A stretch of 64,000 nucleotides of DNA from assembly GCF_000278135.1 (NCBI RefSeq), contig NZ_JH725022.1:132186-196185 (forward strand), read 5' to 3'. Within the stretch, counting starts at the first letter, position 1; every line of letters begins with the position of its first letter. Positions 23,387 through 58,695 of the stretch are shown in pieces. The notes beneath the pieces are model-generated. The model searched no databases, was not told where the DNA came from, and worked only from the letters and a program-made list of their open reading frames with translations. The stretch is from Candidatus Bartonella washoeensis Sb944nv (GTDB lineage Bacteria > Pseudomonadota > Alphaproteobacteria > Rhizobiales > Rhizobiaceae). Both the position numbers and the translations under genes were made by a program.

Positions 23387-24121
23387 ACTCTATCCCCTCA
23401 AAAGATTTATAAAATAATCACCTTAAATTCTCTTTATGTATCATGGACTCTTTAATTTATTAGATATAAATATTAGATATTTCTTATTTTAATCTATAAA
23501 ATATTTAAATAAAATTTATTAATTTTAAAATAATATTATTAAATATTTTTTAATATATATTGTTCATTGTATAATGGTTTTATGGTATAAATTTCAATAA
23601 TTATAAAATTTATTTATTGCAAATAAGCAAAACTTTCTGAAAAAAATTTACTTTTTATAAGAGTTAAAGTGAAAAAATACGCAGATTTTTACTGGTGTGT
23701 AAGATGCTTACATATTTTATATAAAAATTATGAAATCATTTTTTATTCAGAATGCAATCTTATTTATGAGCACGAGGTTTTAACATTTATAGTTTTTCTA
23801 TTGAAATTCTGCTGCCAAAACACTAGAGTTGTGGCTACTTAGTACACACTCTGAACTACATTTACAGCGCCGCAATTTGTAGCAGGAGAGTTCTTGCGAA
23901 CCCTTCCTCTTTATCATAACATATCTTCAAATTCTTTGAAAACGAATGTCTCAAATATGGATGGATATTACCTATCGCATCTATGAGATAAACAAAATCA
24001 ACCACTAATAAGACAAAAACACCCTATTTCACACAACGAGACACTATTTTCATACTTGGGTAGGTATTGATTATCTCATGAAAAAGCTGTCTTTCTTAAT
24101 TCTGTGAATTCTATATTTCTG
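23387..24121. other. AT-rich gene-free stretch at the prophage edge
   Basis: Very AT-rich (almost pure A/T around 23460-23600) with no plausible gene. It separates the transketolase remnant from the phage lysis genes and may contain the old prophage boundary; I could not find a copy of the tRNA-Thr 3' end here by eye. Confidence 0.5.
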
Positions 24122-37195: not shown

Positions 37196-37501
37196 ATGAA
37201 TGTAAGATATTTTTTTTCTATATTTTTTATTATTTTCTTTCTTTCTTCTGGTGCGAATGCATCAGATCGAACTCTTATTCAAGGAGAGACATCTTTTATT
37301 ATTTCTCCTACTCTTTCTAGGACAGCTTTATTTTCTAATAAACAGGTTCGTCCTTTATTGAATAAAGTGATCATGTCTGCTCATTCAAGCAATCAAGTTG
37401 TATTTTGGGAAAGTGTAACATCATTTTTTATGAAAGTGGCGCTTGTATATGCTAATTTATGGCAATATTTATACTCTTCCATATTTTCCATATTTAGGTA
37501 G
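37196..37501 (+). CDS. Putative small secreted protein
   Basis: A 101-codon open frame with a convincing signal peptide: MNVRYFFSIFFIIFFLSSGANA with a likely cleavage after ANA (about residue 22). The mature part (SDRTLIQGETSF onward) has no known domain and ends with an aromatic, partly hydrophobic stretch (ALVYANLWQYLYSSIFSIF) that could be a second membrane helix. Weak Shine-Dalgarno. It lies alone in AT-rich gene-poor DNA, so it could be lineage-specific or a chance frame. Confidence 0.4.
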   Translation: MNVRYFFSIFFIIFFLSSGANASDRTLIQGETSFIISPTLSRTALFSNKQVRPLLNKVIMSAHSSNQVVFWESVTSFFMKVALVYANLWQYLYSSIFSIFR

Positions 37502-38894: not shown

Positions 38895-40052
38895 ATGTTT
38901 AAAAAACCAAGTTATCGTCCAAATAATCCTAATTTTTCTTCAGGCCCTTGTCGTAAGCGACCTGGTTGGACTCTTGAAGTCCTTAAAGAAGCATTAGTTG
39001 GACGTTCACATCGATCTAGAGCAGCAGAATCAAGACTGGCTGAGGTTGTTAATTTAACACGTGAAGTTCTTGAAGTGCCTTCTGATTATCGTATAGGAAT
39101 TGTTCCTGCTTCCGATACTGGTGCTGTTGAGATGTCTCTATGGTCCTTATTAGGCGAACGTGGTGTCGATATGGCAGCATGGGAAAGTTTTGGTTCGGGG
39201 TGGATTGCAGATGTTGTTGAGCAATTAAAGCTTTCTGATGTGCGTCGTTTTGAAGCCCCTTATGGCGAATTGCCGGACCTAACACAAATGGATTTTGATC
39301 GTGATGTTGTTTTTACATGGAATGGGACAACTTCTGGTGTGCGTATTCCTAATGCAGATTTCATTCCAGATAAGCGGGCAGGATTAACAATTTGTGATGC
39401 AACATCAGCGGCTTTTGCGCAAAATCTTGATTTTTCAAAATTAGATGTTGTGACTTTTTCCTGGCAAAAAGTTTTGGGAGGTGAGGCTGCGCATGGCATG
39501 TTGATTTTAAGTCCTCGTGCTGTTGAACGGCTTGAAAGTTATGTTCCACCTTGGCCCATGCCCCAAATTTTCTGTATGAAAAAAGAAGGAAAATTAAACG
39601 AAAATATTTTTAAGGGTAAGACAATTAATACACCCTCTCTGCTATGTGTTGAAGATTATCTTGATGCATTGAAGTGGGCAAAATCATTGGGTGGAGTGCA
39701 GGCATTAAGGGCGCGAGTTGATAAAAATTTTTCTGTAATTGATGCGTTTGTTCGCAAAACACCGTGGTTAGAATATTTGGCCAAGGATCCTCAAGTGCGG
39801 TCTAATACATCTGTTTGTTTAGATATTGTTGATCCAGTTATTACTACTTTGGATATTGAAAAGCGAGTATCTTTTATAAAAGCGGTAGTAAACCGTCTTG
39901 AAGAGGAAGATGCTGCTTATGATATTGGTTCCTATCGAAATGCTCCTCCAGGACTTCGGATTTGGACAGGTATAACCGTTGAGGCTTCTGATCTTGAAAT
40001 TTTAACACAATGGCTTGAATGGGCATTTCAGGTCGAAAAAGCTCGACTTTAA
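38895..40052 (+). CDS. serC: Phosphoserine aminotransferase SerC
   Basis: PLP-dependent class V aminotransferase making 3-phosphoserine from 3-phosphohydroxypyruvate and glutamate (also used in pyridoxine synthesis). The 385-residue protein is of the alphaproteobacterial type: [43 protein letters not shown], and the PLP lysine in [27 protein letters not shown] precedes the ATG. In related genomes serA follows; here purA is next after a terminator, so serC stands alone. Confidence 0.94.
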
Positions 40053-40088
40053 AGCATTGTTGGCAATTTTATAATGTGACTTTTCCAG

Positions 40089-40125
40089 AAAAATACGGGC
40101 GACCATGATGGCCTCTCGTATTTTT
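40089..40125 (+). terminator. Rho-independent terminator after serC
   Basis: Stem AAAAATACG (40089-40097) pairs with CGTATTTTT (40117-40125), with an inner GGC/GCC pairing. The A- and T-rich arms allow it to work in both directions. It lies 36 bases after the serC stop. Confidence 0.7.
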
Positions 40126-40449
40126 AAATAAGAAAACGATGTTAAAATATCGCGCAGATTGTAAGGAATTACAGGGGCTATGAATGATTTTTCAAATATT
40201 GGCGAAAGCAACAACCAAAGGTTCTAAAGTCTTCTACTTTTTACAGAAAAAATGACTGATTGAGAATGAAGATATATTTTATGTCTTAAGTATTGTTTTC
40301 TTTTAATTATCATAAAGTTGCAGATTGAAATCACCTAGAGATTTGGAAAAAGCTGAAATGAAGAGTCGCACTTTCTCTAAGGTTTCGTTATAAAACACCG
40401 TTTGTTTTTGAATGCTGGTTTTGTTTGACCAAACATGATGGAGAAAGTT

Positions 40450-41739
40450 ATGGCCAATGTAGTAGTTGTCGGTACACAATGGGGCGATGAAGGCAAAGGT
40501 AAAATTGTAGATTGGTTGTCTGAGCGGGCAGATATCGTGGTGAGATATCAGGGCGGACACAATGCAGGGCACACATTGGTTATTGATGGGGTTAGTTATA
40601 AATTATCGCTTTTACCGTCTGGTTTAGTACGTGGGAAGTTATCAATTATTGGGAATGGGGTTGTCGTTGATCCCCATCATTTTGTGTCAGAATTAAAAAA
40701 ACTACGTGATCAGGGCGTGAAAATTACACCGGAAATTTTACGTATTGCTGAAAATGCTCCGTTGATTCTCTCTTTGCATCGCGATCTTGATGCGACCCGA
40801 GAAAGTGGTTTATCGGGTTTAAAAATTGGTACGACAAAGCGTGGTATTGGTCCGGCTTATGAAGATAAGGTGGGGCGTCGTGCTATCCGAGTGATGGATT
40901 TAGCAGAACCTGATACGCTTATGGCTAAGATTGAACGGCTTTTGGGACATCATAATGCTTTGCGTCGCGGGATGGGTGTTGCAGAGATTGATTCCAAGGC
41001 GCTTTATGATGAATTAATGCAAGTAGCGGACGAAATTCTACCCTTTATAGATTGCACGTGGCGTCTTTTAGATGAAAGTTATCGGATGGGAAAGCATGTT
41101 CTTTTTGAAGGTGCGCAAGGTGCTTTATTAGATAATGATTTCGGTACTTATCCTTACGTGACATCATCCAATACAGTTGCTGGGCAGGCATGTACTGGTT
41201 CAGGTATGGGACCTAGCTCAATTCACTATGTTTTAGGTATTGCAAAAGCTTATACAACACGAGTTGGAGAAGGACCATTTCCGACAGAGCAGATAAATGA
41301 TATTGGCGAATTTATTGGAATGCGTGGCAAAGAATTTGGTGTCGTGACTGGTCGAAAACGTCGATGTGGTTGGTTTGATGCTGTTTTAGTACGTCAGATG
41401 GTAGCGATTTGCGGTGTTCACGGTATAGCACTGACAAAGCTTGATGTTTTGGATGGTTTGGATGAAATTAAAATTTGTGTTGGGTATGAGCTTGATGGAA
41501 AAAAGATTGATTATTTACCCTCTTCCATGGGAGCGCAAGCTCGTGTAAAGCCTGTGTATGAGACATTGGAAGGTTGGAAGGAAGAAACAGCACATGCATT
41601 GAGCTGGGAAAATTTACCGGTGCAGGCTGTTAAATATATACGCTATATTGAAGAATTGATTAATACGCGGGTGGCTTTATTATCTACTAGCCCTGAGCGT
41701 GAAGATACCATCCTTGTTACTGATCCATTTGCAGATTAA
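40450..41739 (+). CDS. purA: Adenylosuccinate synthetase PurA
   Basis: GTP-dependent condensation of IMP and aspartate, the first committed step to AMP. The 429-residue protein starts [23 protein letters not shown] with the GDEGKGK phosphate-binding loop, followed by [46 protein letters not shown] and [14 protein letters not shown], all PurA signatures. An in-frame ATG at 40435 exists, but GGAG at 40440-40443 is correctly spaced from 40450, which also matches family starts. Confidence 0.97.
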
Positions 41740-41980
41740 TCATTATCTTGAGATTTCCATATTGATTTTTGTTTTGGCTCTGTATTTTCCTATAGAACAG
41801 AGACTGATACGAGAGGGTGTGAGAGAAAGGTGCAAAATAGCATTGTTTATTTCGTATATTCACTTTAAACTGAGGCAATAGTTGTATCAATATAAATGGC
41901 AATCAACTTAGAAGGCTAAAATAAACGCTGGCCTGGGGGCTGGGGTTTTTCTTCTCAGTTTGAGAAAGATTATAGAAGAT

Positions 41981-43408
41981 ATGGTAGATTTCATTGGAAT
42001 CTTAAAAAAAACAATCAATGCGCAAAGTAATGTTACACCACAAGTGCGTAAGCGGGTTTATAAACGAGCTATCGAAACATTAGAACATCAATTTGTAGCA
42101 GCAACAATACCACAAGCGATGGCAGATAAGCAGAGAAAGATTTTGCAAAGTGCTATTGCAACTGTTGAAGAAGAATATTTAGCTGTTGAAAAGAATTTGC
42201 TGTCTTCAGTTATTGGGTGGAAAACTACACATATAGCTGAAGATGACAAACACACACAAGACTCTGTATTGCTACAGGGTAATGAGTTTTCAGTAGTAAA
42301 AACAGAAGGAAGACAAGACACTGTTACAAGTTTAAAGAACAATGAGGCAGTTGATGAGCTTTCTGTATCAGCGGTGCCAGATGCAGAGCTTGTCAGTATG
42401 GAAGCTTATTTGTCTTCTGAGCATGTTGACAACAATACCTTAAAGGCTTCATCTTTAGCTTCTCCTTTGCAAGGAGATAATACGTACATTGTTTCGCATA
42501 TTTTTTCTCAAGCTTTGCGTCGTGCTAATAGGTCATCGATGCAAAGGCGTATTGTGATAAGTGCTGCTGTTTTTGTTGGTTTTTTCACCTTAGTGATAGG
42601 TATTTATTTTATCTGTGAACGTTTGTTTGTATCAAATAATTATCGATTGTCAGGGGAAAATATTCACGTTTCTCATGCATTATCCAGGACACTTTCGGTT
42701 AACAGAAAGTTAACACAACGTCTGTTAGAGGATGGGAGCGAAATTGATGTTGGCTTAGATCAAACGGCAGATTCTTCGAATGAAGAAGGAACCTCAACAG
42801 TTATTGCTAAAAATTTGCAGTCAAGTGAACAATTAGGTGAGGCTGTTTTTTATCAAGCGCGTACGGATTATGATGCAGAAAAAGTAGCAACAGGGAGCGC
42901 TCGTTGGACACTTATAAAGGAGTCTCGCGGAAAGGGGGCTCCAGAAGAATTGGCTATCCAAGGTGATATAAAAATTCCAGATGAAGGATTATCATTACGG
43001 TTAATTTTGCGTCGTAATACCGATCTATCTTTTCCTGCTGCGTATATTATGGATCTTATTTTCATTCTTTCTGATAAATTTTCAGGTCAATCTATAAGCA
43101 ATGTTCAGGCACTAACTTTTAAAGCAAGTGAACAATCCATTGGACAGACTTTAACAAGGACTGTTGCAGCGAAGATTGATGAGAATTTTTTTCTTGTTGC
43201 ATTGAGCAGCAATCATCCATTTCTTAACCGAAATTTACAATTAATGCGGGAATTGGATTGGGTGCGTTTAGTATTGACTGATAAAAACGGACGTACAAAC
43301 GAATTGACTTTTGCAAAAGGACCAACAGGTGAGTCTATTTTTAATGAAGTCATTGGACAATGGCTTGTTAAATCAGAGAAGCTGACAATTCTTGGGCAGA
43401 AAAAATAA
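41981..43408 (+). CDS. Conserved membrane protein between purA and rpoH
   Basis: A 475-residue protein of unknown function, resembling proteins I recall at this location in Rhizobiales. The N-terminal ~60 residues (MVDFIGILKKTINAQ, RVYKRAIETLEHQF) are helical and conserved-looking; a polar linker follows. A single transmembrane helix lies at about residues 185-207 (IVISAAVFVGFFTLVIGIYF). The remaining ~265 residues are probably periplasmic, with a beta-rich portion near EELAIQGDIKIPDEGLSLRL. A TTG at 41960 extends the frame; the ATG at 41981 is more likely by comparison with such homologues. It is not an enzyme by any visible motif. Confidence 0.7.
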   Translation: MVDFIGILKKTINAQSNVTPQVRKRVYKRAIETLEHQFVAATIPQAMADKQRKILQSAIATVEEEYLAVEKNLLSSVIGWKTTHIAEDDKHTQDSVLLQGNEFSVVKTEGRQDTVTSLKNNEAVDELSVSAVPDAELVSMEAYLSSEHVDNNTLKASSLASPLQGDNTYIVSHIFSQALRRANRSSMQRRIVISAAVFVGFFTLVIGIYFICERLFVSNNYRLSGENIHVSHALSRTLSVNRKLTQRLLEDGSEIDVGLDQTADSSNEEGTSTVIAKNLQSSEQLGEAVFYQARTDYDAEKVATGSARWTLIKESRGKGAPEELAIQGDIKIPDEGLSLRLILRRNTDLSFPAAYIMDLIFILSDKFSGQSISNVQALTFKASEQSIGQTLTRTVAAKIDENFFLVALSSNHPFLNRNLQLMRELDWVRLVLTDKNGRTNELTFAKGPTGESIFNEVIGQWLVKSEKLTILGQKK

Positions 43409-43485
43409 AATATTAGCGCGAATGAGACAGAAGACTATAAAAAGAATTCTCGTTACAGAAAGCTTCTGGTAGCTTAGCTCAAACT

Positions 43486-43518
43486 GAAAGAGCCAACAGA
43501 TGTCAGCTCTTTCTTATG
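43486..43518. terminator. Bidirectional terminator between membrane protein and rpoH
   Basis: GAAAGAGC (43486-43493) pairs perfectly with GCTCTTTC (43506-43513) around a 12-base loop, followed by TTATGTT on the plus strand. It sits in the convergent gap and can serve both genes. Confidence 0.65.
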
Positions 43519-43570
43519 TTCAAAATGCACAAATAATTGATTTTATACTTAAAATTTAGGAGCTTTATAC

Positions 43571-44449
43571 CTAACTTTGGGATAAAGCAAAAGCTTTTAT
43601 AGAATCTTGCACTTTTTCAAATGCACGCATTTCAATTTGTCTTACACGCTCGCGACTAATGTTAAATTCACTTGAGAGTTCTTCTAATGTCAGCGGTATA
43701 TCGCTTAAACGACGTGCTTTGAATATACGCCTTTCTCGTTCATTCAAATTACTCATGGCATGTATTAGCATGGAACGACGATTTTCCAATTCATTTTGTT
43801 CAATCAAAGTTTGTTCCTGATTGTTTGAGTCATCCACCAACCAATCTTGCCATTGTCCACTTTCACCTTCTTTGGTGCGAACAGGTGCATTGAGCGAAGT
43901 GTCACCACCAAGTCGACGGTTCATCGATACGACTTCATCTTCTGTGACATTCAATTGGGTTGCAATTTCTTTCACTTGCTCTGCGTTGAGATCACCACTA
44001 TCAAGCGCTTGAAGCCTACTTTTTAACTTACGAAGGTTGAAAAATAAGCGCTTTTGATTAGCAGTTGTCCCCATTTTTACCAAGCTCCAAGACCGCAATA
44101 CATATTCTTGGATTGATGCTTTAATCCACCATATTGCATAGGTTGCAAGACGAAAACCACGTTCCGGCTCGAAACGCTTAACAGCTTGCATAAGTCCAAC
44201 ATTGCCTTCTGAAATGACTTCCCCAATAGGCAATCCGTAGCCCCGATATCCCATTGCAATTTTAGCCACGAGGCGTAAATGACTGGTTACCAATCTATGC
44301 GCAGCCTTTAGATCATTATGTTCACGATAACGTTGAGCCAGCATGTACTCTTCTTTTGGCTCAAGCATTGGAAAACGACGAACTTCTTCTAGGTAACGAT
44401 TCAATCCTCCGTCACCTGTCGTTACTGATAGCAGATTCATATGGGCCAT
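43571..44449 (-). CDS. rpoH: RNA polymerase heat-shock sigma factor RpoH (sigma-32)
   Basis: Alternative sigma factor directing heat-shock transcription. The 292-residue product has region 2 (LRLVAKIAMGYRGYGLP, GNVGLMQAVKRFEPERGFRLATYAIWWIKA), the RpoH box QKRLFFNLRKLK that distinguishes it from other sigma-70 proteins, and the region 4 helix-turn-helix (LTLEELSSEFNISRERVRQIEMRAFEK). The frame is open to 44488, but the ATG at 44449 is preceded on the minus strand by AGGAGGGT, which decides the start. It is downstream of, and on the same strand as, rluD. Confidence 0.95.
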   Translation of the reverse strand: MAHMNLLSVTTGDGGLNRYLEEVRRFPMLEPKEEYMLAQRYREHNDLKAAHRLVTSHLRLVAKIAMGYRGYGLPIGEVISEGNVGLMQAVKRFEPERGFRLATYAIWWIKASIQEYVLRSWSLVKMGTTANQKRLFFNLRKLKSRLQALDSGDLNAEQVKEIATQLNVTEDEVVSMNRRLGGDTSLNAPVRTKEGESGQWQDWLVDDSNNQEQTLIEQNELENRRSMLIHAMSNLNERERRIFKARRLSDIPLTLEELSSEFNISRERVRQIEMRAFEKVQDSIKAFALSQS

Positions 44450-44597
44450 ATAGCACCCTCCTTTTGCATGAATTCCCTGATAAGGCAAATTCGATTTGTA
44501 GACATTACCAATATCTCTAATGCATCACCTTATCATAATTTTTAATTTTGTTCAAAAAGAGACATTTTATTGTGAAATCATAAGAAGGCTAAAAGTT

Positions 44598-50440: not shown

Positions 50441-52417
50441 TTGTGGTTTAGGCAAAGCGTTTTTGCTGGATCTTCTAGGGAAGAAGATATTTCTCTTATT
50501 GCTGGTTTGGATGGCGCAGTAACGTCTGTTGCAATGATTAATGAAAATACAACTGTGTTAGAGGCTCCATCTCATTTTTGTTCTGTTGATAAAATGGTCA
50601 AAATTTTGCTACAGACAATTGATAATGGGGTAATTGTCAAAACCATTTTATCCATAGGAGGTATCAGTAAACAGGTTAGCATTATTCGCTTGAAGGTAAA
50701 TCCGGAAAGTTTTTTGGTGTTATGCCCGCCATTAGAGGCAAAAGAGTTTGAATGTGAAAAAGAATTTTTTTGTTTTATGCCAGAACTTGTGCCACGACAT
50801 TTTACTTGGAAAATGGATAAAAGTGGATGGCTTTTTAATGTTTCAAAAGATTTAGCACAAATTATTTGGCATGTATCCTCTTCTATTTTAGGATCTAATT
50901 TTCATGAGCTTGCCAATCAATTTAATGATGAACGATATCAAGTACTCAGCGGGTTTATTGAAGCGGCTATGCCTTGGAGTAAACAGGCTGTTCAATCGCC
51001 TGTTGATGGTTGTTGAGAGTGGTTTGATGTTGAATTGTTTGCTTTGCCAATTTTTGATGCCAAACAGATGCTTAAAGGGTTTCGTGGCTTTGGTGTTTTG
51101 AAGATGCAAGAAAAAGTACAAGAAGGAAGAGCTGAAAAGCCGGATATAAAAACATCGAGTCTTTCAGAGAGTGAGCGTTCAGCTTTTCATGAGATAGCAG
51201 AACGGTTGCGTGGCGAATTGAAGTCATCGGTAAGGGGAAAGTCTTTTGTTGAAGAAACGGTGGTTCAATTGCCTTGTGCACAGACATTGCCTGGAAATGT
51301 TATAGAACAAGTGCTCATAAAAGAACCAGCAGCGGTTTTATCATTGTTGGATACAGCTACGGATGGCGTTTTATGGTTGGATGGACAAGGTTGCATTCAA
51401 TCGGTTAGTAGTGCTGCTTTGGTATTAATGGGCTATGAAATAAATGAATTACTGGCACAGCCATTATCATCATTATTTACTTTGCAAAGTCGATCTTTGG
51501 TTGAAAAGTATTTTGAGTGGATCCGTTTGAAGGGACAAAATCAGGTTTTTAATCGCGGTGAAACTGCTGATTTATTGACAAAAAGCCATAAGAATATAAC
51601 GGTTTCTATAGTAATCGTACCTTTGGCACGACGAGATAATTATGCTGTTATACTGCATGATATGACAGGACGGGGTCTACCCTTAGATAAAAAAGCAGAA
51701 GAAAATAAAATGGTTGGGGTTGTTCATGAAATGCGAACGCCTTTGAATGCTCTCATTGGTTTTGCAGAAATTATGAGGGATGGCTGCTTTGGTTCAATAG
51801 ATAATGAGCGTTATCGTGGATATTTACGTGACATTATCTCATCTGGAAAACATATATTATCGCTGGTGAATCAATTACTAGAGTGTTCAAAAGTACATCA
51901 TTTTGGCTCAAATAATCAGATTAATACCCCCCTTATAGCTGAAGCATTTGATGTGACATCTTGTTTGCGTGCTAGTATGGCTTTTCTTGAAACACAAGCC
52001 AATCATAGTGGCATTATCATGCGTATTGTTGCACCGGTTCATGTGCCATTTATTTGTGTATCACAACAAATATTCCGCCAGATTATATGGAATCTTCTTT
52101 CCAATGCCATCCGTTTTACACCATCGGGTGGGCAAATTATTGTCCACGTTTCTTATAGAAAAAATGAGCGAGTGAAAATTTCAGTGAGTGATAATGGTAT
52201 TGGGATGAGTGACGAAGAGATTTTACAAGCACTGCAACCTTATGGTCAAATAAAGCGCAAAAACGGCCGATCTGGTGACAGCGTTTTTGTTGGGACTGGT
52301 TTAGGATTACCGATGTGTAAGGCAATGGTGGAAGAGATTGGTGGTCAATTTTTATTATTTTCAAAACCCAATCATGGAACAACTGTAGAGATGTTTTTTC
52401 CTGTGTTCCATGAGTAA
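50441..52417 (+). pseudogene. PAS-domain sensor histidine kinase, interrupted by an in-frame stop
   Basis: A membrane-less sensor kinase in two pieces. The first (50441-51016, 191 codons) ends at TGA 51014-51016; the same frame continues directly with EWFDVELFALPIFDAKQM, so only one stop separates the halves. The second part has a PAS domain (about 51340-51690, ATDGVLWLDGQGCIQSVSSA), the HisKA box VHEMRTPLNALIGFAEIM with the phosphorylatable His, and HATPase motifs NLLSNAIRFTP, DNGIGM and GTGLGLPMCKAM. A TTG at 51035 could restart translation and still give a 460-residue kinase. The upstream end is also disturbed: no good start is seen and a 17-bp duplication lies there. It resembles the PdhS/PleC/DivL cell-cycle kinases of alphaproteobacteria (inference). 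Confidence 0.75.
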
Positions 52418-52841: not shown

Positions 52842-53412
52842 TGCGTTTTCCCCTTTGTGTATGCGACATATGGTAAATTTAACTATGGCTTTTGCTAAAA
52901 AAGGAAAGGGTCGTTTCTATTTTCTTATAGAGTTATATTACAATATTAAAATTCTTTTCCAAAAGTATTATGATGTGTTAAAGGACTTTAGCGAGGGGCT
53001 TTATTTTGATTAATACTGGAGCATCTTATAGAGCTTCAACCTGAAGAGAAGCTTTTTTATCAAAAAAACTGCAAATATATAAAGAGAAAATGTGCTTGAT
53101 TTATAAGATCGTTTTAAGGCATTTATTATAATGCATTGAAAATAATGTGTATTTTTAGATTATTTTTTGATTTTGTTGACAGATTGCTCAAATTTTAATG
53201 CTCTTTATTCTTTCGGAAAAAGAGAGGAAATTATAAGGCAAAAAAGTCTTTATTGGTTAGTATTTGCAAACATAAATTTGATTGTTAATGATATCGTTAT
53301 TTTTCTTGCCGTGGAGATTTTTTTCCTCATGTAAAGAGTGTGTTATCTTGATCTGTAGTTTTGGTTGTTAAGAAGATGCAAAGGCTAATTTTTATTGTCT
53401 GGAGAAAGATTT
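52842..53412. promoter_or_regulatory. Divergent intergenic region between mscL and pyrD
   Basis: About 570 non-coding bases, AT-rich, with no recognisable gene, repeat or RNA. It must hold the promoters of mscL and pyrD. Confidence 0.4.
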
Positions 53413-54504
53413 ATGAGTTTCTTTCGTTGTATTGGTCGTCCTGCTTTATTTATGTTGGATCCAGAGTATGCACATCGTTTAGCAATTTTGGGTCTTAAAA
53501 GTGGGTTGAACAGTTGTAAGAAGATCGTTGATGAGCGTTTATCTGTAACTGTTGCAGGTCTTGAATTTGAAAATTTTATTGGTCTTGCTGCAGGTTTTGA
53601 TAAGAATGCAGAGGTTATAGAGGCTGTTTTACGTTTAGGATTTGGTTTTACTGAGATTGGTACAGTTACGCCAAGACCTCAAGTTGGAAACCAGAAGCCA
53701 CGGCTTTTTCGCTTGATAGAAGATGAAGCGCTTATTAATAAAATGGGCTTTAACAATGATGGGCATCAAATTGTTTATAACAGACTTTGTTCATATAAAT
53801 GGCCTGGTATCGTAGGGATCAATGTTGGAGCTAATAAGGATACGGTTAATAGAATCGACGATTATACTGCTGGTATTGCTTGTTTTTATGATGTTGCCAA
53901 TTATTTCACGATTAATATTTCTTCGCCTAATACGCCGGGTTTACGTGATTTACAGGTGCGTGATAGTTTACGGCTTTTGTTAAACGCGATTTCGCAAGCG
54001 CGCAGTGAACAAAAAGAAAAGTGCGGATTTCTTGTTCCGATTTTTTTAAAAATTGCTCCTGATTTGTCAGAGGAGGAATTGGATGATGTGGCTGAAGAAA
54101 TAAAATTTTCTGATTTTGATGGATTGATTATTTCTAATACCACTCTTTCACGTAAAGGACTGACAAATAGTCTATTGGCTAGCGAAGAAGGAGGATTATC
54201 AGGACGTCCACTGTTTGAGCGTTCTACGATTGTACTGGCAAAGATGCGTCAAAAATTGGGTAAAGAAATTGCAATTATTGGTGTTGGTGGCGTACGGGAT
54301 GCTTATACAGCTTTGGAAAAAGTTAAGGCTGGTGCAGATTTGATACAACTTTATAGTGGAATGGTTTATGAAGGGCCGCACCTTGCTGTAACCATTTTGA
54401 AAGAAGTTTTACAACTTATGCAGCAAGATGGCGTTGATACTATAAAAGCTTATCGTGATCATAGTACTGAAGATTGGGCAAAACGTTCGCTTTCTTTGGA
54501 ATAA
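53413..54504 (+). CDS. pyrD: Dihydroorotate dehydrogenase (quinone), class 2, PyrD
   Basis: Membrane-associated FMN enzyme oxidising dihydroorotate to orotate in pyrimidine synthesis, with quinone as acceptor. The 363-residue protein has the class-2 N-terminal helical extension ([18 protein letters not shown]), then [42 protein letters not shown], the Ser-containing [17 protein letters not shown] catalytic region, and [33 protein letters not shown]. The ATG at 53413 ([10 protein letters not shown]) has GGAGAAAG upstream and is preferred to the more distant start at 53395. Confidence 0.96.
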
Positions 54505-54646: not shown

Positions 54647-54723
54647 GCGGTTGTAGCTCAGCTGGTTAGAGCGCTGGTTTGTGGCACCAGAGGTCGTAGG
54701 TTCAAATCCCACCAACCGTACCA
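54647..54723 (+). tRNA. tRNA-His (GTG anticodon), alphaproteobacterial type
   Basis: A 77-base cloverleaf including CCA. Anticodon arm CTGGT-TTGTGGC-ACCAG gives GUG (His); T-arm GGTTCAAATCC. The acceptor stem GCGGTTG pairs with CAACCGT, giving a G1:U72 wobble pair and discriminator A73. The base before G1 is T, so the G-1 that marks most tRNA-His is not encoded. Confidence 0.97.
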
Positions 54724-55124
54724 TTTATCTTGTTACGACTGTTCTAATTTTTATTTAGTGCTATTTTTGCTGTGGTTAAAAGCCGCAGTTATCGGCCTTT
54801 TTGGTGTTTGAGCCGTTACAGAGCAAAGACCTTGCACGAGTGATTTTATGCGTTTTTTGCCAAAAATGGCCAATTTGTCTAAAAGAGTGAAGACTTGGTT
54901 GCAGAAGGTTTTGGCTTATTTTCCCCTTGTTTTTCAATCTTTTATAAAAATAGCACTTTCTGAAGTTCGAATGCACCTCATGGGGTGCAGACAAGATACA
55001 AACCGACGAACTTCATTGAGAAGACACTATAAGTAGCATCTAAACCATTGTTTATTATATATAAAATTGTTGTTATGGCAGAAAATAGCATCTTATAATT
55101 TATTCTAGCGTAGGGGAGCGCCGA
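54724..55124. other. Spacer behind tRNA-His
   Basis: About 400 bases. A 62-codon open frame (54848-55036, MRFLPKMANLSKRVKTWL) is unrecognised. A short inverted repeat TGCACC/GGTGCA (54972-54989) lies inside it. Nothing else is supported. Confidence 0.4.
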
Positions 55125-55802
55125 TATGACGATTATAGCGGATAAGAAGAAGATAGAGGGCTTGAGCCAAAGCCCACAAGAGCAAGACATAGATAAGTTA
55201 AAGGCCGCCTTTCCGCAATGTTTTCGGGAGGGCAAGCTAGATATAGATCAGCTTTTAAACCTTATGCGGTGAATATATCGAAAATGATTTTGAGAATTAA
55301 GTTTGAATGGAAAGGCAAAGGAGCAAGTCTATAAAACTTGCGCAAAAGCCTTCTTTGGCAACGTTGCGGCCTAAGTTTGATGAAAGTGTAGACTTTGACA
55401 ACACGCATAATGTTTATATTAAAAGCGATAATCTCGAAGTCTTAAAGCTTATCCAACGGCCTTATTTTCAAGGGGTCAAGATGATTTATATTGACCCACC
55501 TTATAATATGGGGAACGATTTTGTCTATGAGGATGATTTTAAGGACCCGCTAGCGCGCTATAAGGAGGTGATGCGCCAAACGACAAAATCGAATCCCGAG
55601 ACAATGGGGCGCTTTCACACGGCGTGGCTGAATATGATCTACCCGCGCTTAAGGTTGGCTCAAAGCTTATTGCGTGATGATGGGGTGATCTTTATCTCGA
55701 TTGATGATCATGAAGTGCATAATTTGCGCAAAGTGTGTGATGAGGTGTTTGGCGAAGAGAATTTTGTTGCGCAATTGGTGTGGGAACGCGCCTATGCGCC
55801 CC
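55125..55802 (+). pseudogene. Type III restriction-modification methyltransferase (Mod), 5' fragment
   Basis: Site-specific adenine methyltransferase of a type III system. The ATG at 55125 opens MTIIADKKKIEGL, then DKLKAAFPQCFREGKLDIDQL, the typical Mod N-terminus, but stops at 55272. Two frame disturbances later it continues with AQKPSLATLRPKFDESVDF, NVYIKSDNLEVLKLIQRPYF, the catalytic MIYIDPPYNMGNDFVYEDDF, GRFHTAWLNMIYPRLRLAQ and DDGVIFISIDDHEVHNLRK. After FVAQLVWERAYAP (about 55802) the Mod sequence ends abruptly and unrelated sequence follows, so roughly the last two-thirds is deleted. No res gene is present. Confidence 0.8.
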
Positions 55803-56110
55803 TTCAGTTCGCTTGCACGATCTATTTCGGATCATACAGGACTGCAACCCAATGTCGATTTTCTAATTGCAAGCATCATGAGCAAACATTGGGCTGTTCT
55901 TGAGCTGGGATTGTTAGCTTTTTTCGTTTGTCGTATGCTGATACTTCTCGCACACTATCAATCGCGGTTTAGCTCTCATTCCTCCAATCATGGCTATAAA
56001 GCATCGCACCGAGCCAAATTTATTGGGTATATGTCAGAGTATCACCTTAACCGCACCGATGCGTGCTTGCGGGCAAATCGATATTTCTCACTGGGATTTA
56101 GCCCATAATT
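55803..56110 (+). pseudogene. Citrate-synthase-like C-terminal fragment
   Basis: Directly after the cut methylase, the frame used by 55701-56108 reads SLARSISDHTGLQPNVDFLI, LLAFFVCRMLILLAHYQSR and HRAKFIGYMSE. The order matches the end of citrate-synthase-family proteins (GLxPNVDFxLA, LFAxGRTxGWIAHxxE, RPRAxYIG). Only the last ~80-100 residues are represented and the active-site Asp region is not complete. The fragment has no start of its own. Identification is by pattern and is tentative. Confidence 0.4.
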
Positions 56111-56317
56111 ATTTGAAACAGGGCTTGTTACTCGAAGCCTTGCATCAGTTTTCAGTTCGATTCGCCACCGTGGTGGCTAAAAACTCGGATCTCACTTATC
56201 GCTATCTCCCTGTTATGGTTGAACAGTTTTTCTCTACCGCCCATTTTGATAGCGATCGGTTGCGCGTTGAAGGACATATTGAACGCATTAATGAGGCCTA
56301 TCGTATTCACTTGTAAG
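56111..56317 (+). pseudogene. Unidentified gene fragment
   Basis: Open frame reading NYLKQGLLLEALHQFSVRFAT, then SDLTYRYLPVMVEQFFSTAHFD and VEGHIERINEAYRIHL before its stop at about 56316. It looks like real protein sequence but I do not recognise a family. The frame extends back to 55990 through less convincing sequence. It lies between the citrate-synthase-like and hotdog fragments. Confidence 0.3.
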
Positions 56318-56333
56318 GCCAGCCCATACGACA

Positions 56334-56789
56334 ATGGCAGGGCCGTTAATTGCGCAGGCAATCATCATTGTCAGTAAGGTCTGCTTCTCTGGCTCGTGTT
56401 TTGAGAAAGCCGCTCTTCCATTACTAGGCTATTTATGTAAGATTTTCTCCGTAACCGGAGATTCTTGTAATTTTTCCTTTAATGCGCATCACCCGCTTTT
56501 TGATGAACATTTCCCCACCCGCGCCGTATGTTCTGGTTCACTATTGATTGAGATGATTCTGGCTTTGTCTACGCAGGGTAGGGCGAAAAATATCGCATCT
56601 GTTACGCTGAAAAAAGTAAAGTTCATTGAAGCAGTTTATCCGGGAGATACCTATCAGTTGACCATTAAACAGGATACAGAGCGTGAACTAGGTGGCGTTT
56701 TTTATATTCATACAGAAACTAAAAAACGAAGCACTTGCGGTAAGTTTTCTATCAAATATAAAAAGGAGGATGCGCCATGTTTAACATAA
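56334..56789 (+). CDS. Hotdog-fold 3-hydroxyacyl-ACP dehydratase-like protein
   Basis: A 151-codon frame whose second half carries the FabZ-like signature: NAHHPLFDEHFPTRAVCSGSLLIEM, with the expected His and the PxCSG variant of the usual PVxPG turn, then VTLKKVKFIEAVYPGDTYQL. Such proteins dehydrate 3-hydroxyacyl chains on ACP or sit in polyene/lipid gene clusters. The first ~45 residues do not look like a dehydratase, so the true start is probably inside the frame or the 5' end is rearranged. Its stop overlaps the next frame by 13 bases, as in an operon. Activity is doubtful in this degraded island. Confidence 0.5.
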   Translation: MAGPLIAQAIIIVSKVCFSGSCFEKAALPLLGYLCKIFSVTGDSCNFSFNAHHPLFDEHFPTRAVCSGSLLIEMILALSTQGRAKNIASVTLKKVKFIEAVYPGDTYQLTIKQDTERELGGVFYIHTETKKRSTCGKFSIKYKKEDAPCLT

Positions 56790-57334
56790 TAATCTCTTTT
56801 ATTCCGTGGAGTATTTACTCCTGGGTTATCAATGGAAACGTTTTAACTCTGGTCGAACGCTCTCTCATCTTAACTGTGATTTTATTGTCCATTATTGCTG
56901 TGAATATTAAAATTGTCCGACAGGGAGAATCCGTGATGATTACTAACATTCTGACAGTTATTGTCCTGTTTGTTAATTATTTCGCTGGATGGTCTACACT
57001 TTTACTGAATTAACCCACAGTTTTTTGCTATCTGTCACTTGCTCTGGTTTCATTGATTAGCTTGCTGGTAAAGAAACCCTTTACCATTTTTTATGCCAGT
57101 GCTGGTGTTTCTGAAGAAAAACGCAAACATATCCTATTTTATCTCATCAATAGATATATTACATGGATTTTGGTAATCATCTTTTTTGCCAATGGTCTTC
57201 TCGTGGCTTTTTTTGCATGGATCCCCCAGCTTTTGTGGGTCACTATGGGTTTAATTTGTGCTGGTATTCTTTTTTCTAAATATCTTCCTAATATCATGCA
57301 ATATTTTTATCGAGTCAAACACCACGGTGCATAA
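56777..57334 (+). pseudogene. Multi-spanning membrane protein, interrupted by a stop
   Basis: AGGAGG stands just before the ATG at 56777. The frame gives MFNIIISFIPWSIYSWVING with hydrophobic helices, and meets TAA at 57011-57013; the same frame then continues through LALVSLISLLVKKPF, EEKRKHILFYLINRYITW and IPQLLWVTMGLICAGILF to 57334. Together these form a ~185-residue protein with about five membrane helices split by one nonsense codon. No family is recognised. Codon use and base composition look less AT-biased than the surrounding genes. Confidence 0.55.
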
Positions 57335-57335
57335 T

Positions 57336-57838
57336 ATGTCATTGTTTAACATTCTGACCGGACCTTCTTTATGGGTCTGGATTTTGCTTATTTTTCTCAT
57401 TACGAGGGGAATAAGCGCATTGAAAGATAGGGAAATGAAGGTTAACTGCCTTTTTCTATTGCCGTTAATCTTTCTTTTTTGGGCGCAAGCGATGTGATTA
57501 ACGAGCTGGCGTTCCCACGCTGAGGAGCAATCTCAATATTGGCGGGGCTGATGATCGGCGTTGGCGTTGGCTGGTTTCTCTGACGTGCCGCTCCGCGTTT
57601 AAAAATCAAAGAGGGAACGGATTTAATTATTCGGCCTGGTACGCCGTTGACACTGATATTTATTCTTATCGCTTTTGTCATCAAATTCACATTGATTGTT
57701 TTTCTCAATGTTGAACCTGATTTGAAATATGCATTTGATTTTAAACTTCTTTTTGCTCTTTTAAGTGGGTTCACTGATGATATGTTTTGGGGCGGCACAT
57801 TAAATTTATATATAACATTTCAAAAGAATCCAAATTAA
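57336..57838 (+). pseudogene. DUF6622-like membrane protein, frameshifted
   Basis: Begins MSLFNILTGPSLWVWILLIF two bases after the previous frame, with RGISALKDREMKVN following, and stops at 57497. Another frame then continues GVGVGWFL, a TGA, and RAAPRLKIKEGTDLIIRPGTP, LIFILIAFVIKFTLIVFLN, ending at 57838. This layout (short helix pair, charged loop, GW turn, RPGTxxxL, helix ending in IKF) resembles the small DUF6622 membrane family. At least one frameshift and one stop break it. Confidence 0.5.
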
Positions 57839-58695
57839 TCCCTATACCATTAGCTGTGGGTGCTTCCCATCAGAACTATCTCAATAGAAGCTTATTCCTA
57901 ACAACAACGCTGCATACAAACGCAGCGTTGCCTCATAGTTTCGGATTTTTTTGTCTCAGCGCGTGAATACGTGACGGAAGTGATATATCTGACTATGCCC
58001 CACTTGGGGGCAGAGTAAGCCTAAAGGTTTAGAATGCTATAAGTTTAAGCTAGCTGGACTTTGAGCAGATGGTTTATCGCTAATGGTAAATCATTTTGTT
58101 TTACGATTCAAAAAGAGGATAGTGATGGTCTCATTGGCGTAGGTGGGCAAGAAAACTCTTAGTTTGGCAATGCGTCAACAGTTTGTAGAACTATGTTGTT
58201 GAATCCATACGCAAAGCGGTTGCTATGATGGCATGATGCTTTTGTCAAGCGTTATGATATGGTAGGAACCGGTGTTTAAGGGTGCACCTGCGGTCACTGT
58301 ACGACCCAGTAGCATTACGTTTAAGTATTTAGGAGCGGCAGACTCCGTACAGGCTACGCGTACAATATGTGAAGTACGCTTGCAGGAATCAGTGTGTCAT
58401 TATTGCGTTGTGCACGCAACCCTCTAGCTAGTATACTTCATTGGTAAGGCTGTTTTTTGAAGCTGTTTGTAATATCTGTGTGTTTTTAAAGAGAACGTTA
58501 GCACCGATGTATCGCATGCAGTACCAATTGTTTCACTTAGTTTTTTAGAATTGGCGGCTTTAGAAAGCGCAAAGTGTATTTTATTTTGATAAAGGTTATG
58601 TCATCCTTAGAATCAATTACGATGAGGTTTTGCATAGTGTTTATGCATGAATGATTCTAAAAAATGGGGATAATTGTTTTCTGAATTGGTGTTTT
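57839..58695. other. Gap between the pseudogene island and the puuA-like gene
   Basis: About 860 bases without an intact gene. A stretch near 58220-58430 reads protein-like pieces (RPSSITFKYLGAADSVQ and onward) but with stops, and no family is recognised. It contains the promoter region of the downstream operon; no clear element was found. Confidence 0.4.

Follow-up and report, generated by a model that had tools for sequence, protein, structure and literature searches.

The stretch treated here spans positions 55,125 to 57,838 of a 64,000-nucleotide window (the whole piece of DNA that was analysed) from Candidatus Bartonella washoeensis Sb944nv. It is likely the decayed 3' end of a gene run resembling a type II polyketide synthase (PKS), held as one block in a recombining array at the tRNA-His gene. 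In the mouse-associated species B. grahamii (ATCC 700132; genome G021, contig C4; Table 1), the genes of this remnant also stand at the end of a type II PKS-like run whose 12 genes are all intact. In the window genome (1.97 Mb across 11 contigs) the run is dead: every gene is broken and a pseudogene remnant is left. The remnant accounts for an otherwise unreadable stretch, and it warns that such frames are pseudogenes.

A sequence-only reading had described this stretch as a chimeric island, in which a type III mod methylase gene stops in mid-domain and is joined to a citrate-synthase-like tail, followed by an operon of hotdog, membrane-protein and DUF6622-like genes. The cut and the joined tail are real, with the breakpoint at 55783 / 55790-55792. 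The mod fragment consists of two overlapping pieces that cover codons 1-221 of 622, so that no complete mod gene is present; the fragment is 82% identical to the intact mod of locus L002, and no second mod match was found in the window's own genome. The operon layout also stands, as the hotdog, membrane and DUF6622 frames lie in one direction with overlapping ends up to 57838 and with AGGAGG at 56764-56769, but no gene of this run is whole. The citrate-synthase-like piece is limited to codons 273-338 and lacks a complete active site. The window hotdog frame matches FabA at E=6.7e-5 with 23 bits, which is exactly the cut-off; the hotdog of L002 reaches 25.5 bits against the same value. DUF6622 scores are 13.1 bits in the window, 25.9 in L002 and 35.7 in the alphaproteobacterium G137, with a Pfam cut-off of 27. 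Since the window's own citrate-synthase and DUF6622 matches fall under the Pfam cut-off, both assignments are drawn from the intact homologues in B. grahamii (Citrate_synt, 69.3 bits) and G137 (DUF6622, 35.7 bits). Own-genome matches for the hotdog, citrate-synthase-like and DUF6622 proteins are confined to this stretch, and the ketosynthase-like (KS-like) protein of B. grahamii has no match in the window's own genome.

The intact cluster was found by the protein search that the sequence-only reading had proposed for a donor-type cluster. The B. grahamii contig has no N-run between 24070 and 60000, and the cluster is followed by mod and res genes (39294-44457) and by a glutamine-synthetase-like gene (GS) at 52347. 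The ketosynthase (KS) residues Cys177, His318 and His353 are invariant in all three clusters compared (B. grahamii and the alphaproteobacteria G137 and G736). The KS-like partner aligns with the ketosynthase in hhalign (93%, E 2.6e-7) with Ser162, Asn280 and Tyr311 replacing Cys, His and His; its best PDB matches are the ketosynthases 6kxd and 1tqy (E 0.005-0.007), the former of which we take to be the ishigamide ketosynthase pair. By these replacements the partner qualifies as a putative catalytically altered, chain-length-factor-like ketosynthase. In the citrate-synthase-like protein, His214, His255 and Asp296 lie within the expected motifs, which presumably have the roles known for the citrate-synthase motifs. 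A citrate-synthase-like, hotdog and membrane-protein set, which had not been recognised as a pathway, thus fits a type II PKS-like cluster in B. grahamii; hotdog and membrane genes also belong to the G137 and G736 clusters, around which no citrate-synthase-like gene was seen in about 30 kb read. The supposed foreign lipid/membrane cluster proved to be an unrelated biosynthetic cluster indeed, but one of type II polyketide-like rather than general lipid character. The intact run suggests present or recent production of a specialised metabolite by a blood bacterium restricted to its host.

Table 1. Features of the window locus (window positions) and genes of the intact B. grahamii cluster (positions on G021:C4)
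Feature	Position	Strand	Evidence or remark
tRNA-His, 3' end ...CCGTACCA; left border of array	54647..54723	+	ARAGORN; relatives' junctions at GTACCA
Probable left-end remnant of another block (TTTATCTTGTTACGACTGTTCTAAT...)	54724..55094	+	87-88% to G022/G027, 371 nt
Type III mod methylase 5' fragment, frameshifted ~55250-55350	55126..55783	+	N6_N4_Mtase 54.8 bits, cut-off 26.7
mod/citrate-synthase-like junction	55784..55791	+	mod similarity ends 55783, citrate-synthase-like begins 55790-55792
Citrate-synthase-like pseudogene piece, codons 273-338/357	55790..55983	+	91.8% DNA identity to intact B. grahamii gene
Double-hotdog (dehydratase-like) pseudogene, two frameshifts	55990..56789	+	codons 1-107, 108-119, 119-265 in three frames
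AGGAGG, likely ribosome-binding site of membrane gene	56764..56769	+	sequence
Membrane-protein gene, 185 codons, hydrophobic, internal TAA 57011-57013	56777..57334	+	homologues in G137, G736
DUF6622-type membrane-protein pseudogene, T6 slip 57475-57480 and two TGA codons	57324..57838	+	
Non-coding tail of unit	57839..58489		between-species similarity about that of genes (segment 57839-58520 compared)
37-nt right-end repeat, last bases AGTACCA	58490..58526	+	similarity to relatives falls immediately 3'
Short-chain dehydrogenase/reductase (SDR)	G021:C4 26204-26983		adh_short_C2 above Pfam cut-off
Acyl carrier protein (ACP)	G021:C4 26983-27366		PP-binding 38.7 bits, cut-off 20.8
KS-like (chain-length-factor-like) protein	G021:C4 27368-28435		
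Ketosynthase (KS)	G021:C4 28449-29735		ketoacyl synthase N and C above Pfam cut-off
AMP ligase (first)	G021:C4 29746-31155		AMP-binding above Pfam cut-off
Possible phosphopantetheinyl transferase (PPTase)	G021:C4 31143-31847		ACPS 19.3 bits, cut-off 25
Methyltransferase	G021:C4 31899-32564		methyltransferase family above Pfam cut-off
IaaL-like ligase (second AMP ligase)	G021:C4 32571-33788		AMP-binding 25.3 bits, cut-off 29.9
Citrate-synthase-like protein	G021:C4 33883-34956		Citrate_synt 69.3 bits, cut-off 27
Double hotdog	G021:C4 34947-35744		
Membrane protein	G021:C4 35732-36289		
DUF6622	G021:C4 36279-36794		

Pieces of the unit are present in 30 of 71 Bartonella genomes (DUF6622 in 29, and hotdog and membrane pieces in G039), and the earlier view of these genes as foreign to Bartonella is therefore not upheld. 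Hotdog genes were counted in 15 genomes after setting aside 8 weak matches of 23. The excluded ones show 33-35% identity to a 168-aa protein and were taken as FabZ; the sole one read, L027, sits between lpxD- and lpxA-looking frames. The citrate-synthase-like piece occurs in 21/71 genomes, and DUF6622 is uninterrupted at full length in 21 copies from 20 genomes. Of the 30 genomes that have pieces, 18 carry the unit next to tRNA-His; for 9 others the available flanking sequence was too short or absent. In G005 (L060 1503-1786), codons 14-56 of the citrate-synthase-like gene are joined to codons 299-358 by an independent deletion; a longer gene of this kind was therefore once present.

Unit segments from 14 genomes are 88-97% (mostly 90-96%) identical to the window, and the non-coding tail is 90-95% identical in 11 of the 13 genomes with a match (77% in G052, 86% in G053). 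The flanks compared with the window give lower values: 79-82% for pyrD (11 genomes), 84-86% for GS (5), 80-83% for the next gene (5) and 82-88% for mscL (7). Synonymous divergence (dS) of DUF6622 is below that of pyrD in 15/15 matched pairs of six genomes (means of 0.14 and 0.55, about fourfold), the broken window copy having been left out of the pairs; pyrD dS is 0.63 over 28 pairs from eight genomes. Because divergence is lower than in the flanks even at synonymous and broken sites, the unit was probably spread between Bartonella species after they had diverged.

The window unit lies between pyrD (53395-54504), followed by tRNA-His, and GS, the next host gene on the 3' side, which starts at 58651. 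The gene names pyrD, GS, puuB-like, mscL, zwf, res, MFS and MATE are informal labels given by eye, as are radical-SAM, primase, ATP-grasp, lpxD and lpxA. In G052, G011, G034, G016 and G017, the citrate-synthase codon 193-194 joins the tRNA-His end at GTACCA. In the second, truncated copy of G021, in G040 and G049 and at ten other loci (one of which, L069, carries an inserted base), this codon is preceded by a sequence of some 37 nt whose last bases are AGTACCA. In relatives the unit is flanked on either side by GTACCA, a direct repeat of the last bases of the tRNA gene. The 37-nt repeat was found in 25/71 genomes and the reversed pattern in 0/71; the 30-nt core of the 37-mer had 0 occurrences in 100 shuffles. 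In B. grahamii the repeat stands at 23596-23632, 37446-37482 and 52140-52176 (the last with five mismatches), so that three blocks lie between tRNA-His and GS: one of membrane-protein genes, the biosynthetic one, and one with mod, res and transporter genes. Other arrays carry MFS- and MATE-looking transporters and a pyridoxal-phosphate decarboxylase fused to an acetyltransferase domain. The window segment 54724-55094 is similar to other block starts within the selected set compared.

Identity changes abruptly at these borders. In the G016/G034 comparison it is 79.0% before the end of tRNA-His and 90.0% after it, then 92.7% before the right repeat and 71.7% beyond it. The left step was repeated in G052/G034 (80.0 to 90.0%) and in G011/G016 (80.3 to 89.3%). 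With such sharp borders, the tRNA-His array offers a concrete example of blocks being exchanged between Bartonella species. An integron attC site is a folded site with its crossover at GTT. An attC nature of the repeat was rejected, as two folded copies gave no stable hairpin (z 0.42 and -0.98) and the crossover is GTACCA.

Several further arrangements were seen at the array. Four hydrophobic proteins adjoin tRNA-His at G021:C4 19274-23512 (L040, L041) and at L137 10763-14619; those of L137 have no Pfam match above the cut-off, and in G021 a glycine-rich 104-aa peptide with no Pfam match precedes them. The tRNA-His end runs straight into the membrane-gene start in G018 and G070 (L135 15825-15867, L139 2793-2835). 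G032 (L138 14348-15981) and G021:C31 (1-744) each have a copy of the membrane/DUF6622 tail, and the variant of the 37-nt repeat found with it is identical in the two.

The mod gene is found upstream of the remnant in G020, G022 and G027 as in the window, with differing junction points. In G021 the mod and cluster blocks are neighbours with mod downstream of the cluster, and the order is the same in G052. As mod and the cluster tail adjoin in these two genomes in the opposite order, the window junction would be best explained by loss of DNA between neighbouring blocks of the tRNA-His array. The junction need not be a unique chimeric acquisition.

Tentatively, it may be proposed that rodent-type Bartonella share a trans-mobilised cassette array at tRNA-His, with the 37-nt right end and GTACCA as crossover, by which modules for biosynthesis, restriction-modification and transport move from species to species, one of them being an undescribed polyketide-alkylcitrate-amide pathway of a bacterium carried in the blood. 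On the main reading of the array as well, a tyrosine recombinase of an integrase family amplified in Bartonella would act in trans and recombine at GTACCA. An N-terminal fragment of such an integrase (Arm-DNA-bind_3) adjoins the repeat in G022, and this family matches 58/71 genomes, often dozens of times. At least 46 of its matches were recorded in G021, at least 66 in G022 and at least 20 in the window genome. In the window, a deletion from about mod codon 221 to citrate-synthase codon 273 would have fused two blocks, the remainder having decayed.

The unit could instead have been spread by homologous recombination through a gene transfer agent, phage or conjugation, its borders being limits of homology and no site-specific recombinase taking part; this is possible, if somewhat doubtful. 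A gene transfer agent of Bartonella is known, according to the parts of the sources consulted (PMC2697382, PMC6899734), and such a route agrees with the lack of a visible integrase in the B. grahamii blocks, with a direct repeat of GTACCA only, and with units lying away from tRNA-His in G032, G053 and G056. It would, however, leave unexplained why three pairs have their left border at the tRNA-His GTACCA, and why the right border coincides with the repeat in the sole finely tested pair, with like borders in the window against G016, G034 and G049. Neither would it account for one 37-nt repeat closing unrelated tandem blocks or for flanking pyrD and GS without low divergence.

It is improbable that the region evolves slowly under strong constraint, exerted on regulatory RNA or DNA or on protein function, and was not recently spread. 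The high identity of the non-coding tail, the uninterrupted DUF6622 copies and the dN/dS of the membrane gene (0.35 over 10 pairs) would agree with constraint. Yet many copies are broken at unchanged identity, and dN/dS values of 0.60 for DUF6622 (136 pairs) and 0.58 for the hotdog (one pair) point to weak protein constraint there; synonymous sites are themselves more alike than in the flanking genes, and identity changes abruptly at both borders. A recent single acquisition by the window strain from outside Bartonella is very improbable, as the higher third-position G+C (GC3) of the intact cluster genes and the homologous clusters in other alphaproteobacteria are outweighed by pieces in 30/71 genus genomes, 18 of them at the same tRNA-His, and by units mostly 90-96% identical to the window in 14 genomes.

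Several observations weigh against reading the stretch as the end of a PKS-like run in a tRNA-His array. The KS-like gene occurs in 1/71 Bartonella genomes, so that elsewhere a remnant of the whole cluster is direct for the 3' genes only. No tRNA-His lies near the unit in G032 (17.5 kb), G056 (19 kb each side) and G053 (16 kb), and the unit is therefore not confined to this gene. The shared GTACCA is just 6 nt long, and no integrase was found among frames of at least 100 aa in the B. grahamii blocks. The remnant unit begins inside the citrate-synthase gene rather than with a block-type left end. Since GS beyond the right border is at 84-86%, the drop there may partly be fast intergenic change. 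In B. grahamii, a 10-N gap (24060-24069) lies upstream of the cluster in the scaffold, the PPTase and second AMP ligase score below their cut-offs, and two predicted structures have low confidence (pLDDT 31.7 and 39.1).

From the protein families, the enzyme roles and product chemistry of the intact cluster may be inferred as follows. The ACP would be charged by the PPTase-like protein, and a starter acid would be loaded by one AMP ligase. Extension of the starter would fall to the ketosynthase and its chain-length-factor-like partner, while the SDR would serve as ketoreductase and the hotdog protein would be the dehydratase. Condensation of the acyl thioester with an alpha-keto acid, for instance oxaloacetate, could be carried out by the citrate-synthase-like enzyme, and the methyltransferase would add a methyl group. 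The IaaL-like ligase would join the acid to an amine or amino acid, and the membrane and DUF6622 proteins may handle or export the product.

Outside Bartonella, the KS-like protein was searched for in 398 genomes from the phylum, where its one match was G137. In 385 genomes from the class, a two-sequence profile gave three matches, namely G137, G736 and a weak one in G726, and a survey of the family around G137 yielded 11/295 matches with G137 itself as the sole strong one. G137 and G736 each hold in one run an ACP, a KS-like protein, a KS, one or more IaaL-like ligases, two separate hotdogs, a membrane protein and an SDR; NAT and ATP-grasp-like genes lie farther out. Identities between G137 and B. 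grahamii are 43% for KS, 26% for the KS-like protein, 33% for ACP, 30% for SDR, 29% for the ligase and 26% for the membrane protein. DUF6622 is above the cut-off in G137; in G736 no such gene was noted. Taken singly, the hotdog and membrane matches are weak (E 4e-4 to 1e-8, small sets), and gene order adds support. Hotdog and membrane genes, once with DUF6622, co-occur in all three clusters and are therefore regarded as partners of the type II PKS-like set. Ahead of the G736 cluster (L101 8670-11647) lie genes that resemble SbnA, diaminopimelate decarboxylase and SerK, each scoring under its NCBIfam cut-off; they look as though they supplied diaminopropionate-type building blocks.

Plasmid or viral carriage was rejected, as no plasmid match was found for the hotdog or KS-like protein, and no viral-contig relative of the ketosynthase or the DUF6622 alignment was found in pattern-based scans, which detect mainly close relatives for single proteins. 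The first ligase drew 62 plasmid records, 0 of which covered 80% of the protein. The second ligase led on plasmids to IaaL-type and PaaK-type genes, with a shared cluster in 0/4 records looked at out of 23. Five plasmid records matched the citrate-synthase-like protein and led to a Rhodobacteraceae plasmid cluster, whose citrate-synthase-like gene shows 22% identity over its full length. This cluster, on the plasmid of Rhodobacteraceae SC52 (L085 3022-17641), encodes a 2391-aa ketosynthase-matching protein, a dioxygenase, and citrate-synthase-like, methyltransferase and PPTase-bearing proteins; genes of the last three types are common to it and the B. grahamii cluster.

The genes had been described as less AT-rich than the host, and this is true mildly: the stretch has 40.2% G+C against 37.8% in the whole window, but 19.5% of 620 equal-length sliding windows are as rich. 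A foreign island by composition was rejected, as its G+C is not unusual. Codon use proved more telling, GC3 being 0.355-0.459 in the 12 intact B. grahamii cluster genes and 0.246-0.289 in four nearby host genes, and is the clearer compositional sign.

The DUF6622 gene of the window has T6 where most relatives have T7. Frameshifts exactly at this tract occur in 5 of the 29 copies that span it (30 examined), with T6 in G000 and G031 and T8 in G069 and both G056 copies. The tract might resemble a contingency locus. For the window copy, a reversible phase-off state was discarded in view of the two TGA codons that it carries besides the T6 slip. In the portion of the source seen, vbmA of B. krasnovii is a DUF6622 gene with frame switching at a C6-14 tract and is likened to an oxidoreductase (PMC11466379). 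Like the window gene, it encodes a DUF6622 membrane protein of a rodent Bartonella, as far as that portion goes (PMC11466379); its tract is C6-14 by the description given there (PMC11466379), against T7 in the present gene.

No description of the cluster or array was found in the literature, which was searched mostly without full text, the B. grahamii genome papers being searched by term and without supplements. Composite genomic islands are tandem integrative elements at tRNA genes. Like these, the Bartonella array consists of blocks that follow one another from the 3' end of a tRNA gene and have an end sequence in common. It differs in that the B. grahamii blocks showed no integrase, its direct repeat has 6 nt, and one 37-nt right end is common to blocks of unrelated content.

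Among biosynthetic systems, highly reducing type II PKSs (ishigamide type) and aryl polyene clusters likewise combine a KS, a chain-length-factor-like partner, a ketoreductase and a hotdog dehydratase; for aryl polyene clusters the likeness is by gene content, not by sequence. We know of no citrate-synthase-like or IaaL-like ligase gene in clusters of either type. IaaL, the indoleacetate-lysine ligase, is represented by 7 Pseudomonas plasmid records, one annotated iaaL, to which the second ligase is about 39% identical over 83%; in the 2/7 neighbourhoods looked at, where the gene table was incomplete, no listed gene matches the cluster.

The cispentacin and coronafacic acid (CFA) pathways (AmcB-H, Cfa1-5) also possess an ACP, a ketosynthase with a partner, an AMP ligase and a hotdog in a small operon. 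NCBIfam Amc models match the KS, ACP, ligase and hotdog, with scores far under the curated cut-offs (KS 151/325, ACP 20.6/80, ligase 28.7/370, window hotdog frame 15.1/140). Membership of the cispentacin/CFA pathway is not supported, the Amc equivalog scores lying below their cut-offs, and unlike that pathway the Bartonella cluster has additional citrate-synthase-like, methyltransferase, IaaL-like ligase, membrane and DUF6622 genes. In cispentacin formation, the KS pair elongates and cyclises on the ACP, as stated in the part of the source consulted (PMC10698177). Fungal alkylcitrate synthases of the maleidride pathways couple polyketide chains to oxaloacetate, and these pathways likewise place a citrate-synthase-like enzyme beside a polyketide synthase, as described in the section seen (PMC8851701). 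The fungal PKS is iterative, unlike the type II set of Bartonella, and the likeness is one of description, not sequence. The cispentacin and alkylcitrate parallels are analogies of putative mechanism rather than of membership.

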